DNA from: Aneurinibacillus soli
GTDB lineage: Bacteria > Bacillota > Bacilli > Aneurinibacillales > Aneurinibacillaceae
Assembly (NCBI RefSeq): GCF_002355375.1
Contig: NZ_AP017312.1
Location: forward strand, 1,629,001 to 1,693,000
DNA: 64,000 nucleotides
Direction: 5' to 3'
Below the pieces are notes generated by a model, which was not told the DNA's origin, ran no database searches, and was given only the letters and a program-made list of their open reading frames with translations. This document shows, one piece after another, positions 27,286 through 32,779 of the stretch; the first letter of the stretch is position 1; each line of letters opens with the position of its first letter. A program made the translations under genes and the position numbers.

Positions 27286-27292
27286 TGCATCA

Positions 27293-27583
27293 TCGGAAGT
27301 TTGTTTGATGGGATAGAGGTCAGCAAAGTATGGAGGCGGAGAGCGAAGAAGAGAGAAGTTCGTCGCGGTTTTATGCGTGGCAGGGAAGCGGGGGTTGTCC
27401 GCTCCAGGAGTCAGGCAGACTCGCCCGCAAAGCGCTTCCGAAGAATTGCTGAAGGAGCAGGTTGCGGGCAAAGGCCCCTCTGCCAGCCTCCTTCCGCTGG
27501 GGAAGCGCATAAAAAAGCTCCTTACTTTCTCTCTTCTTCGCTTCCGGCGTACTTTGCTGCTTACACATCAAATAAACTTCGAT
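27293..27583 (+). repeat. Structured intergenic element, copy 4
   Basis: Best-preserved copy. Outer stem: AGCGAAGAAGAGAGAAG near 27340 pairs with CTTTCTCTCTTCTTCGCTTC near 27530, flanked by CAGCAAAGTA/TACTTTGCTG and further out by GAAGTTTGTTTGATG against CATCAAATAAACTTC. Inner helices: TTATGCG 27371-27377 with CGCATAA 27506-27512; GCCCGCAA 27423-27430 with TTGCGGGC 27462-27469; a GAGTC/GACTC mini-hairpin about 27408-27422. Confidence 0.88.
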
Positions 27584-27650: not shown

Positions 27651-27668
27651 TAATTTTTCTTCCTTATT

Positions 27669-27832
27669 ATCGAAAGTTTGTTTGATGGAATAGAGGTCAG
27701 CAAAGTATGGAGGCGGAGAGCGAAGAAGAGAGAAGTGCGTCGCGGTTTTATGCGTGACAGGGAAGCGGGGGCTGTCCGCTTCAGGAGACTGGCAGACTTA
27801 CTTTGCTGCTTATCTGTCAAACAAACTTTGAT
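27669..27832 (+). repeat. Structured intergenic element, copy 5 (internally deleted)
   Basis: The left 130 bases repeat copy 4 with only a few differences, including the flank GTTTGTTTGATGG and the core GGCGGAGAGCGAAGAAGAGAG. Then the sequence jumps to the extreme right end (TTACTTTGCTGCTTA, CAAACAAACTTTGATTATTG), so the middle and the right stem arm are missing. The far flank (ATATGTAAA) also matches copy 4, pointing to a segmental duplication followed by deletion. A lone right-arm-like stretch (TCCTCTTCTCCCGTTCCTTC) follows at about 27870-27900. Confidence 0.8.
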
Positions 27833-27963
27833 TATTGCGATTACATATGTAAAAGCAGAAACTCATAGTTCCTCTTCTCCCGTTCCTTCACCACGCTTGT
27901 CGTTAGCAGATCCCGCCCGTTTTTGTGCTACAATAAGAAAAATATCCAGTAGAGGTGAATGGC

Positions 27964-28782: not shown

Positions 28783-29065
28783 GCATATGCTTGATGGTTT
28801 GAGCATTACCCAACATAGTCAGGAGTGGAGAAGGAAGGGGCCATGAACGCCTGTACGCGACTACCCAGCGGAAGGGTTCGCGCACACGAGCCTTTTGTCC
28901 CCAACCCTTCTGCGAAAAAACGTCCTGTCCTTTTGGGGACAGAGTGTGCGAGGTTCCTGAAGCGGCCTTGCGTTGCTTCGTTGCAAGCGTACCGAAGTGA
29001 CAGGTACATTCCTTCTCCGCTCCTCCACCATACATTGGGCAGATCTAATCCGTCAAACACGATGC
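28783..29065 (-). repeat. Structured intergenic element, copy 6
   Basis: Outer stem: AGGAGTGGAGAAGGAAGG near 28819 against CCTTCTCCGCTCCTCCACC near 29012, extended by CCCAACAT/ACATTGGG and TTTGA/TCAAA. Inner helices: GTACGC 28853-28858 with GCGTAC 28987-28992, and TGTCCCCAA 28896-28904 with TTGGGGACA 28933-28941 (nine perfect pairs, a sequence different from all other copies). It ends exactly at the stop codon of the leftward flippase gene. Confidence 0.85.
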
Positions 29066-31044
29066 TAATTCATATGACTCTTCTGCTCCTCCACATACGC
29101 GGGTACAATCCGATAGCGGGACAGCATGCGATACGCTTTCTGTGCCACATTCGGGAAATAGCGAATATCCTGTACATCAATGCCGCCAAGCCAGAATAAG
29201 GCTAGCGCATAGGCGGTCAGCGCACATGCGCCGATCATCGCCGCTTCGAGTCCGAAGAACAGGCGCTCTGGAATCAGCAGATGTGGTTGAACCGTAAACC
29301 CAAGCCAGATGATGCCAAGTCCAATAGCGGACAAAAGAAGCGAGGATAGCAGAAAACCGCGCCAGCGTTCACCGAGAATGGCTAGCTTTGTATACTGATT
29401 AATCGCCCGAATATTGAGCGACATAACCGCAATAAAGCAGAGTGATGTTGCCAGGATAATGCCGTAAATACCGAACAGCGGAGCAAATACATAGTTGCCC
29501 GCCAGTTTGACAAGCACGCCGATAATAACATGGCGCATCGGTAAATCCGTACGGCCAAGCCCTTGCAGAATGCCGGATGATGTCATCATCATAACTTGGA
29601 AAATCGTACCGATACATAACGCTCCGATAATAAACGCCGCTTTCAAGTACGTAGCATCCGTATTTTTAAACAGCAGCCCATTAATCGGATACGCCGCCAC
29701 TGTCAAATACAGTGCTGCCGGAACACCCGTAATGAGCGCAATCCGCAGCGCCATCGAGCTCATGCGCTGCACTTCCGCATGGTCGCGCCGCGAATACGCG
29801 GCCGATACGACCGGAATGATGGACGAACTGAGCGCAATCGCGAGAATGATCGGCAGACCAGCGAGTGACTGGGCGCTTCCGCCGAGAATCCCCACTGTAT
29901 CTACCGCTTCATTGTACGCATGCAGCTGTTCCGTAAAGAAACGGAGCGGTACGCACGGCACATCCGTACCGGCAGCGATTTGGAGTGGACCGCCGAACGT
30001 TTTTCCATTTAGCACAACAGGCTGGTTCATGACAAGAGTTGCTTTGACCGGACCACGTTCATAAAAGGCCCGCTGGTGGTTTTTATCCCAGACAAGATCG
30101 GCTCCCATCGCGACGCTCGCTTCTTCGAGCGGAATCATCGTCGTATTGTTCTTGTACAAATACGGCGCGACGGGTAGCGTAATCTCTTTGCCACCGATTG
30201 TCGCTTCCGTATGTTTTAACGTCACCGATATGCGTTCGTTCTGCGGAGTCAGAAGCCGCAGAGATGTCGATGAATCGATAAAGTACAAAAGCGGTACGGC
30301 CATCGCAGAAATCGTGATAGGCAGGGACAGACGCAGCATCTTGCCATAAATTTGGCGATATGTGAGTTTTGTATAGTTTTTTTGTTCAGACACTCGCTTC
30401 CTCTGAGCCGGTCGGTGTTTTTTATAGAAATACATCATGACCGCCACTGCCGCGACACTTCCCATCACGGCACCGAATGAAGCGCCTGCTACGGCTACAT
30501 CTTTGTTGTATCCATAATGCAGCAGAATAAGCGGCAGTGCGACCGCCGTTGCCACGCGGAGGATTTGCTCCATGACCTGGGAAAGCCCGGTCGGCTGCAT
30601 GAATTGCTGACCCTGGAAGTATCCGCGCATAATCGCAATGAGCGGGAAGAGAAGCATGGCTGGAGCAATTGCTTTGATTGCCAGCTCTGCTTGTGGCGCT
30701 AAGGCATATTCCGCATAGTACGGTGCGATTATGATCATAAATAGAAACATCACGACACCTGTAACGAGCGCAAAATTCCGCGCCGCCTTGTATGTCTGGT
30801 GTGCTTCATGATACTGGCCGACCGCCGTATATTCCGAAATCTGCTTGCTTAGTGCGCTTGGTACGCCAAGTGTTGCGATGATCAGGAGCATGCTGTAGAC
30901 GTTATAGGAGATCGTGTACAGCGTCATCCCGTCGTTGCCCATAATGTGCTGCAATGGTACGCGCTGCCCGACACCGAGCACACGCGATACAATAGCCGCT
31001 ACAGTCAGAATGAGCGTTCCTTTCAAAAATGAGTTTTTTGACAT
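29065..31044 (-). CDS. MurJ/SpoVB-type polysaccharide flippase with inserted copper-amine-oxidase-like domain
   Basis: 659 residues, against about 520-550 for YtgP/SpoVB-type members of the MOP/MVF exporter superfamily, which flip lipid-linked wall precursors. The N-terminal half (GTLILTVAAIVSRVLGV, YTISYNVYSMLLIIATLGVPSALSK, RGYFQGQQFMQPTGLSQVMEQ) and the second half are typical. About 100-110 extra residues lie after the seventh membrane segment (roughly 270-372, bases 29928-30237). These contain PYLYKNNTTMIPLEEASVAM, GADLVWD and DVPCVPLRFFTEQL, the paired pattern of copper-amine-oxidase N-terminal-like domains. By the usual topology this loop faces outward. Confidence 0.88.
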   Translation of the reverse strand: MSKNSFLKGTLILTVAAIVSRVLGVGQRVPLQHIMGNDGMTLYTISYNVYSMLLIIATLGVPSALSKQISEYTAVGQYHEAHQTYKAARNFALVTGVVMFLFMIIIAPYYAEYALAPQAELAIKAIAPAMLLFPLIAIMRGYFQGQQFMQPTGLSQVMEQILRVATAVALPLILLHYGYNKDVAVAGASFGAVMGSVAAVAVMMYFYKKHRPAQRKRVSEQKNYTKLTYRQIYGKMLRLSLPITISAMAVPLLYFIDSSTSLRLLTPQNERISVTLKHTEATIGGKEITLPVAPYLYKNNTTMIPLEEASVAMGADLVWDKNHQRAFYERGPVKATLVMNQPVVLNGKTFGGPLQIAAGTDVPCVPLRFFTEQLHAYNEAVDTVGILGGSAQSLAGLPIILAIALSSSIIPVVSAAYSRRDHAEVQRMSSMALRIALITGVPAALYLTVAAYPINGLLFKNTDATYLKAAFIIGALCIGTIFQVMMMTSSGILQGLGRTDLPMRHVIIGVLVKLAGNYVFAPLFGIYGIILATSLCFIAVMSLNIRAINQYTKLAILGERWRGFLLSSLLLSAIGLGIIWLGFTVQPHLLIPERLFFGLEAAMIGACALTAYALALFWLGGIDVQDIRYFPNVAQKAYRMLSRYRIVPAYVEEQKSHMN

Positions 31045-31054
31045 CGTTTATTCC

Positions 31055-32779
31055 TCAAGACGTTGTAGTTTTCGTTCGGGCCAGATCGCGCAACACAGCA
31101 TCATCCGGTGTAATGAACAGCGTTTTTTGTTGTTCGTAAATGACAAAGCCAGGCTTTGCCCCTTTTGGTTTTTTGACGTGGCGTACAAGTGTATAGTCAA
31201 CGGGCACCTGGCTTGATTGCCGCGCCTTGCTGTGATACGCCGCAAGCATTGCCGCTTCCGCAAGCGTGGCATCTCCGAACTCCGTGCTGCGAATGACGAC
31301 ATGAGAACCTGGAATATCTTTCGTATGCAGCCATGTATCTGTCGGTGCTGCGAGTCGGTTCGTCAAATACTCGTTCTGTTTGTTGTTTTTGCCAAGATAC
31401 ATCTCAATGCCTTCACTTGACGTATACCGTTCGAGTACCGGATTTTTCGTTTTTGGCTTCCGATTTCGTCCGGTGCGGGCACGGAGATAGCCTTCTTCGG
31501 TCAACTCTTCACGAATTTCTTCAATGTCAGACAGACCGGCACTTTCGACCTGCTGGATGATCATATCAAGATATCGGACTTCCTCTTCCGCACCTGCGAT
31601 CTGTTCATCTAGCACAGCGAGACTGTTTTTGGCCTTCGTATATTTTTTGAAATACGCCTGGGCGTTCTCGGAAGGTGTCAGCCTTGGGTCAAGTGGAATC
31701 GTTAGTTCCGGTGAATCATCCTCATAGTAATTCAGCACCGTCACGTCTATCTGCCCGCGCTCCATCTGATAAATGTTGGCGGTAATCAGCTCGCCGTACC
31801 GTTGATACACATGGGCATCTTCGGCCTGACGCTTCGTTTCTTTCAGCTTTTCGATCTTTTTGGCATTTTTATCGCGCTCATTGCTTACGAGTCGTAGCAA
31901 ATCGTGCATGCGCTGCTTGACCGTATCGCGCTCCGCTTTGCCTTGATAGAAAGCTTCGAGGCAGGCGCTCATGGAATCAAAGGCTTCTGCCACACCTTGC
32001 AGGTGGGTGAGCGGGATGGCCGAGAAATATTCTTTTGTTGCTGTCCGTACAATGGTTGGCGTGTACAGATGAGCGTCTACATCATCCATGACAGAGCGGA
32101 ACGCATTCCAGAGCGCATCTTCTGTCGGTAGACCCGCGCGATGCAGGATTTCCGTTGCGACAAGCGGGCTCATGCCAGCAAAGGAACCGACAAGCTGTTT
32201 GTCCAGCTTTCCTTCATTAAACTTCATACGGGCGAGAAATTCCTGCCGAGACGTATCAAGTGGGTTGCGCTTATCCTGCGGCGGTGGCGGCAGATATGGT
32301 CGGCCCGGAAGGACGACCCGATAGCGGCTGACGGAAGGCGTGACATGATGCAGCCCGTCATGGATGAGCCCGGTTTCTGGGTCCATGAGAATCAAGTTGC
32401 TATGCCGCCCCATAATTTCAAGCACAAGACGTTTGGCGCGATCGTCACCTAATTCGTCGCGTCCGCGCACATCAATATGTACAATCCGTTCCATGTCCAC
32501 CTGTCGGATGGACTCGATGACGGCTCCTTCACAATATTTGCGGAGCAGCATGCAGAACATCGGCGCTTCAAGCGGATTCTGATACGCTGCGGTTGTCAGT
32601 TGAAGGCGGGGAAAACTCAGGCTCGCCGACAGCAGAAGGCGGACGCTGCCGCTGCGCGTGCGAATTTGCATCACGATGTCTGTATCGGTCGGCTGGTGGA
32701 TTTTTGCGATCCGGGAGCCAGCCAGCTTCTCGTTCAGCTCGTGTGTCACCGCACGCGTGACAATGCCGTCAAAAGCCAT
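31055..32779 (-). CDS. rqcH: Rqc2 homologue RqcH (NFACT family)
   Basis: Ribosome-associated quality-control factor that adds C-terminal alanine tails to nascent chains on obstructed 50S subunits; older annotations call it fibronectin-binding protein. 574 residues: NFACT-N (MAFDGIVTRAVTHELNEKLAGSRIAKIHQP, with the D-R motif DVRGRDELGDDRAKRLVLEIMG), central coiled coil with two arms, and a C-terminal NFACT-R domain (EGIEMYLGKNNKQNEYLTNRL, TWLHTKDIPGSHVVIRS). Equivalent to B. subtilis yloA, next to the calcium ATPase as there. Ten bases from the flippase gene, probably co-transcribed with it. Confidence 0.93.
   Translation of the reverse strand: MAFDGIVTRAVTHELNEKLAGSRIAKIHQPTDTDIVMQIRTRSGSVRLLLSASLSFPRLQLTTAAYQNPLEAPMFCMLLRKYCEGAVIESIRQVDMERIVHIDVRGRDELGDDRAKRLVLEIMGRHSNLILMDPETGLIHDGLHHVTPSVSRYRVVLPGRPYLPPPPQDKRNPLDTSRQEFLARMKFNEGKLDKQLVGSFAGMSPLVATEILHRAGLPTEDALWNAFRSVMDDVDAHLYTPTIVRTATKEYFSAIPLTHLQGVAEAFDSMSACLEAFYQGKAERDTVKQRMHDLLRLVSNERDKNAKKIEKLKETKRQAEDAHVYQRYGELITANIYQMERGQIDVTVLNYYEDDSPELTIPLDPRLTPSENAQAYFKKYTKAKNSLAVLDEQIAGAEEEVRYLDMIIQQVESAGLSDIEEIREELTEEGYLRARTGRNRKPKTKNPVLERYTSSEGIEMYLGKNNKQNEYLTNRLAAPTDTWLHTKDIPGSHVVIRSTEFGDATLAEAAMLAAYHSKARQSSQVPVDYTLVRHVKKPKGAKPGFVIYEQQKTLFITPDDAVLRDLARTKTTTS

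Follow-up and report, generated by a model that had tools for sequence, protein, structure and literature searches.

The window analyzed here is a 64,000-nucleotide stretch of the Aneurinibacillus soli genome (RefSeq assembly GCF_002355375.1, contig NZ_AP017312.1, positions 1,629,001 to 1,693,000). It contains a gene for a predicted flippase of the MOP superfamily that carries, between transmembrane helices (TM) 7 and 8, an inserted domain of the Cu_amine_oxidN1 family (PF07833). The gene and its parts are listed in Table 1. The plus strand of the same interval, translated in frame, had stop codons all along its length. The upstream neighbor rqcH (NFACT/RqcH) was found beside the flippase in all 11 examined genomes of the Aneurinibacillus family, and the two genes are probably cotranscribed; at four loci of the sister family of the same order, rqcH was not found within the stretches compared. 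As an observation in its own right, the conserved pair (29065 to 32779, minus strand) links ribosome quality control with a membrane flippase. Genes of the pyr pathway lay near the flippase in nine of the 11 genomes and outside the compared stretches in the other two.

Table 1. Features of the flippase locus (window coordinates)
Feature	Position	Strand	Remark or basis
Whole flippase gene	29065..31044	-	659 codons plus stop; ATG at 31044
Flippase N-terminal half (residues 1-267, TM1-TM7; Polysacc_synt 7-267)	30244..31044	-	Pfam and hydropathy
TM7 helix (residues 229-265 in the model), with Asp257 and Arg263	30250..30360	-	Model, alignment, hydropathy
Entire insert (residues ~268-378)	29911..30243	-	Missing from insertless orthologues
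Cu_amine_oxidN1 (PF07833) domain (residues 283-376)	29917..30198	-	Profile match and fold
Ser390-Ala391, TM8 start	29872..29877	-	Arg/Lys at 390 in the nearest clades
TM9-TM10 outer loop (residues 455-468)	29641..29682	-	Five-residue extension in 11/11 insert-bearing sequences; alignment
Flippase C-terminal half (residues 390-659, TM8-TM14; MurJ/MatE matches)	29068..29877	-	Pfam and hydropathy
rqcH (NFACT/RqcH), adjacent upstream	31055..32779	-	Ends 10 bases before the flippase start

Two further elements lie on the downstream side of the gene. A Uma2-family gene (PF05685; 27955 to 28542, plus strand) sits between pyrE and the flippase; among the flanks compared it was complete in the window genome alone, with a 43-residue remnant match in the nearest relative. 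An intergenic dispersed repeat (27289 to 27560 and 27666 to 27861) is present in two adjacent copies that are 93% identical over 133 bases. It had 47 matches in the genome at 69 to 100% identity (mostly 69 to 81%) and represents an interspersed repeat family.

The assignment to the flippases, which had been proposed from the sequence as a MurJ/SpoVB type, was upheld at the superfamily level. Pfam matches on the whole protein were Polysacc_synt at residues 7 to 267 (96.4 bits), MurJ at 392 to 589 (58.1 bits), and MatE at 390 to 519 (54.1 bits). Hydropathy analysis revealed 14 hydrophobic segments, of which the seventh (residues 239 to 257) and the eighth (residues 395 to 413) flank the insert. 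A model of the full protein, generated with AlphaFold2 from the window protein and nine relatives (10 sequences), had a pLDDT of 78.5 and a pTM of 0.76, and its closest match in the PDB was MurJ (7wax; TM-score on target, 0.81), with MurJ structures matching at E values of 1.1e-12 to 2.6e-6. The 14 TM helices and the MurJ-like fold thus place the protein in the MOP superfamily. The model also put the additional domain between TM7 and TM8, as originally predicted. The 6-7 loop, on the inner side, contains 11 Lys/Arg residues; leaving the insert aside, the six outer loops contain zero to two each, although three inner stretches likewise carry just one; because of this distribution, the insert very likely lies outside the membrane, in the TM7-TM8 outer loop.

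Phylogenetic analysis refined this classification. The tree was built from 95 sequences (119 before repeats were removed), including nine of the 11 insert-bearing sequences, with canonical MurJ left out. The window protein fell into one group (SH-aLRT 99.5) with Gorillibacterium, the sister family, and three sequences of f5, another family of the class, and the insert-bearing sequences formed a clade within this group (SH-aLRT 99.9); the branch uniting f5 with Gorillibacterium (40.2) and that of the sister family itself (77.8) were weak. Identity as SpoVB was rejected, as the TIGR02900 match (243.4 bits, in two stretches) fell below the cutoff of 372.3 and the SpoVB set of 20 sequences formed a separate clade (SH-aLRT 100). 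The YtgP-type set of 12 (SH-aLRT 99.8) and the YabM-like proteins that the 11 family genomes encode (SH-aLRT 100) were likewise clades of their own, and the TIGR01695 score for MurJ was 53.9 bits against a cutoff of 235.55. The original MurJ/SpoVB label therefore held for the superfamily and gave way to a paralogue that falls outside the SpoVB, YabM, and YtgP clades and far below the MurJ cutoff. On these sequence comparisons, the best explanation is that the window protein is a MOP-superfamily flippase of lipid-linked glycans in a SpoVB-like group, whose clade comprises the Aneurinibacillus order, Gorillibacterium, and f5.

The gene neighborhood points in the same direction. Judged by reading the sequences at the loci, SpoVB genes neighbor secD and yajC, YabM genes neighbor mazG and mfd, and YtgP genes neighbor rsuA and ytfP; the window flippase, unlike these, has rqcH and the pyr operon as its neighbors. 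Of ten YtgP-type loci inspected by eye, most had rsuA and/or ytfP and one (L138) had neither, and a ytfP-like neighbor was also seen at a locus outside the YtgP-type set (L151). The window genome encodes its own SpoVB (500.6 bits), a YabM-like protein (C1:257988), and a MurJ (C1:1060323; 300.5 bits, over the NCBIfam cutoff), and MurJ scored above the cutoff in all 11 family genomes. The window gene is thus an additional paralogue and does not have to supply the flippase for lipid II. The alternative flippase Amj was detected in four of the 11 family genomes and was absent from the window genome.

The insert itself was readily identified. In the whole-protein search, Cu_amine_oxidN1 matched residues 283 to 376 with 67.5 bits (cutoff, 24.2). 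When residues 266 to 390 were searched alone, it was the sole Pfam family found (77.2 bits; E value, 1.1e-21; same cutoff), which bears out the copper-amine-oxidase-like domain of the original prediction; the match covered profile positions 2 to 95 of 108. The insert modeled alone had a pLDDT of 83.6 and superposed at 1.8 Å over 70 residues (Z 7.8) on domain 1 of Escherichia coli copper amine oxidase. The nine best matches listed were all to this enzyme (Z 7.4 to 7.8; 1.8 to 2.0 Å; 69 to 71 residues), and the first unrelated structure followed at Z 3.2. A Foldseek search with the same model gave a best E value of 7e-3 (probability 1.00) and no match at E values of ≤0.001. No His or Cys was invariant among eight aligned inserts, in which a single Met was invariant, and copper binding or copper chemistry by the insert is for this reason unlikely; we rejected a copper site on the same grounds. 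The invariant residues were mostly Pro, Gly, Leu, and aromatics, which resembles a protein core and not a polar binding face.

PF07833 is frequent in the window genome (19 matches, 18 above the cutoff). Among seven other carriers that were scanned, two were Amidase_3 plus AMIN proteins, one was an ankyrin protein, and one had NHL repeats; a signal-peptide-like start was seen by eye in four of eight carriers examined. These features agree with the earlier expectation that the domain usually occurs on exported or wall-associated proteins.

The architecture was present in all 11 genomes of the Aneurinibacillus family examined, and each of the 11 proteins retained the PF07833 match. Named records assign the clade to Aneurinibacillus (A. 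aneurinilyticus, A. thermoaerophilus, A. tyrosinisolvens, A. danicus, A. terranovensis, strain Ricciae_BoGa-3, and one metagenome-assembled genome labeled Paenibacillaceae), and the named loci L039 to L045 did not add to the count of 11; two of the genomes (G000 and G006) were near-identical (97%). In the sister family, all four genomes encoded the flippase without the insert, with a plain loop. Those orthologues are 52 to 59% identical to the window protein over the best-matching segment, which is the N-terminal half, and have 531 to 545 residues versus 659, so that the extra length noted at the outset is real. Measured between the TM7 Asp and Gly385, near TM8, the loop spanned 122 to 126 residues in the nine insert-bearing sequences of the 95-sequence alignment versus 20 to 25 in the remaining 86, which rules out an ordinary long loop of the flippase family and confirms that the insert is unusual among the relatives examined. 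An origin by frameshift or other artifact was ruled out by the single open frame in 11 genomes and the low dN/dS.

Beyond this order, we surveyed 398 genomes of the class (including these 15) and 398 of the phylum, two draws that overlap in part, with up to eight first-look candidates scored per genome. Among the matches listed in the class draw, a profile of the whole insert plus its flanking helices was covered by the 11 family sequences alone, and the next best match reached 66.1 bits over positions 31 to 141 of 177. In the phylum draw, where the Aneurinibacillus family appears with a single genome, none of the matches listed at E values of ≤1e-12 was other than the window's own. In the class survey, the nine top-ranking partial matches (L059 to L067) were not flippases (two of the nine had chance-level tblastn matches only; E values, 0.5 to 1). 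Whole-protein searches of nine other genomes that had partial matches (G083, G206, G277, G422, G470, G486, G515, G771, and G778) did not show the domain within a flippase: domain-only matches such as G470:C38, G771:C36, and G422:C3 had no flippase half reported in the same frame, and the flippases listed in those nine genomes occupied frames of 460 to 608 residues. No relatives of the window protein were found in viral contigs. Because the surveys are samples with a limited number of candidates per genome, a rare independent case outside the Aneurinibacillus family could exist. The best explanation of the distribution is that the ancestor of the whole Aneurinibacillus family gained the domain in place of the TM7-TM8 outer loop and that it has been kept since.

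Retention of the insert was accompanied by sequence constraint. In the two least diverged pairs, its dN/dS came to 0.048 and 0.028, compared with 0.011 to 0.031 for the core (synonymous sites are near or past saturation for most pairs, and L009/L010 and L011/L012 alone are safe); in a more distant pair (L011/L015), the values were 0.098 for the insert and 0.020 to 0.029 for the core. By this measure, the insert is under purifying selection. It nevertheless diverges faster than the core: excluding G006, identity to the window protein was 32 to 67% in the insert versus 57 to 86% over residues 1 to 265 plus 379 to 600, with the PF07833 match persisting at 32% identity, and species differ by indels of one to five residues within it.

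Other positions on the outer face changed along with the insert. Ser390, at the start of TM8, was found in all 11 insert-bearing sequences, compared with Arg in four of four sister-family sequences, Arg or Lys in four of four from f5 and Gorillibacterium, and Arg in all 11 YabM-like proteins; a basic residue at this position is also missing in SpoVB and YtgP, the latter having a Lys three residues on (12/12). Arg263, at the end of TM7, occurred in 11 of 11 insert-bearing sequences versus zero of four in the sister family and one of four in f5 plus Gorillibacterium. The TM9-TM10 outer loop is five residues longer in sequences with the insert, a length reached or passed in one of the 86 insertless sequences. 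By our own post hoc reading, seven of ten fixed charge differences between nine insert-bearing and four sister sequences fell in outer loops. All of these insert-linked changes rest on one branch of the tree. Within the genomes compared, the insert is a family-wide trait rather than a single-strain oddity, and it is accompanied by other changes of the outer face.

These patterns bear on whether the domain does anything at all. A single insertion that was tolerated, and then kept because misfolding would break the flippase, would account for the one origin, the restriction to one family, the faster evolution relative to the core, and the internal indels. Its retention in all 11 genomes, where PF07833 still matches at identities as low as 32%, and the linked changes at 263, 390, and the TM9-TM10 loop argue against this reading, as does a dN/dS well below 1, although selection on folding alone would also yield that value. 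We regard such passive decoration as somewhat unlikely.

The flippase core probably remains functional. Residue 257 is Asp or Glu in 94 of 95 aligned flippases, and R21, R28, K67, and D257 are invariant within the insert-bearing family. Because the basic residues of TM1 and the acidic residue of TM7 are kept, we infer that the flippase is probably active and still flips an undecaprenyl-linked precursor. A protein that no longer flips, and instead serves as a membrane anchor or sensor displaying the domain in the manner of other exported PF07833 proteins, would fit the loss of the basic residue at the TM8 start and the presence of other flippases in the genome. For the teichoic acid flippase TacF, it has been proposed that the diphosphate is held by basic residues of TM1 and TM8 (PMC13385700). 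The invariant residues, together with a core that evolves more slowly than the insert, make an anchor or sensor very improbable.

The position of the domain suggests how it could affect an active flippase. In the full model, the TM7 helix ends at residue 265, the first domain strand starts at 272, the last aligned domain residue is 373, and the TM8 helix runs from 375, leaving a linker of about six residues toward TM7 and few or none toward TM8. With linkers this short, the domain should sit near the gate according to the model, in which the pLDDT by ten-residue block was 77 to 88 across residues 271 to 390 and 65 at residues 401 to 410, near TM8. In MurJ, the switch between inward and outward states pivots on TM7, and Gly245/Ser248 are joined to Asp39 in the periplasmic gate (PMC6465408). 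By analogy, these gate residues would correspond to the place of the insert, and a folded module joining TM7 to TM8 would be suitably located to sense or steer the opening of the gate.

What such a module might recognize may be judged from another PF07833 protein. In an exported Paenibacillus superoxide dismutase (crystal structure 8IMD), PF07833 is a homodimerization domain, and the melting temperature was 50.5 °C for the full protein versus 38.0 °C for the protein without it; the E. coli domain has two helices, the second of which replaces the partner's helix of the dismutase (PaSOD) dimer, and Aneurinibacillus is named among the carriers of PF07833 (PMC10432803). We propose that the PF07833 domain sits on the outer gate and would move with TM7 and TM8, and that its most likely job would be protein-protein pairing, either homodimerization of the flippase or docking of an exported wall-assembly protein. 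The docking partner could perhaps be another PF07833 protein, by which substrate release would be tied to a wall-side partner. This view of the insert, as an outer-gate-coupled module for pairing or docking, is tentative, with odds a little short of even; it ranks first among the readings considered here, with passive decoration and polymer binding not far behind. The PaSOD dimerization domain matched the insert model weakly (Z 2.4), and since the second helix of the E. coli domain takes the place of the partner's, a two-helix insert may be self-paired and lack a free dimer surface.

Alternatively, as originally proposed, the domain could act at the exit by binding wall polymer or the headgroup of the released glycan and so gate or speed release, in keeping with its exit position in the TM7-TM8 loop, with the two cell wall amidases by Pfam among the seven other PF07833 proteins scanned in the genome, and with the outer-loop clustering of charge differences. 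That clustering was spotted post hoc, the invariant residues of the insert are core-like, and the open-license literature surveyed showed no sugar-binding activity for PF07833; ligand binding of this kind is unlikely. Pairing is favored over it because the sole experimental role for PF07833 found in this bacterial group is homodimerization.

A more specific form of the pairing model is doubtful at present and would extend it to the transport cycle. TM7 and TM8 would be joined via the module, with the basic residue at the TM8 start lost and one gained at the TM7 end, and opening of the flip cycle would require the module to pair with itself or with an exported wall-assembly protein, yielding a wall-side-gated MOP flippase. 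If true, precursor supply would be controlled from outside the cell. Little is understood of how MOP flippases are coupled to wall machinery beyond the membrane, and the window flippase clade is not known to have a characterized member. The insert-bearing flippase and its close insertless sister orthologues form a natural pair for testing wall-side control of flipping, and the same pair bears on the role of the very common, little-studied PF07833 domain in these bacteria. In the open-license literature, no description of a flippase with a PF07833 insert was found, nor was anything on point found on Aneurinibacillus flippases. Each part is already known, and the combination is what seems new.

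Among known systems, YabM, YtgP/MurJ, and SpoVB share the fold family of the window flippase, are mostly 500 to 570 residues long as called in this analysis, and carry a basic TM1 residue and an acidic TM7 residue; they differ in forming separate clades with other gene neighbors, and the loop holds at most 25 residues in each of the 86 aligned flippases that lack the insert. MurJ (7wax, 7waw, and 6nc6) is the best structural match, yet identity was 13 to 15% in the MurJ matches listed, and canonical MurJ sequences, when aligned, had nothing comparable in the TM7-TM8 region. Domain 1 of E. coli copper amine oxidase (1spu and 1oac) has the same fold and PF07833 profile as the insert. It is N-terminal in a soluble enzyme, whereas the window domain is internal and runs into TM8, with the last 13 profile positions unmatched. 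The cysteine-less CuZnSOD of Paenibacillus lautus (8IMD) carries the same Pfam family in the same bacterial group on an exported protein, but its PF07833 domain is a one-helix form that dimerizes by helix and strand pairing, a form to which the insert model is only distantly similar.
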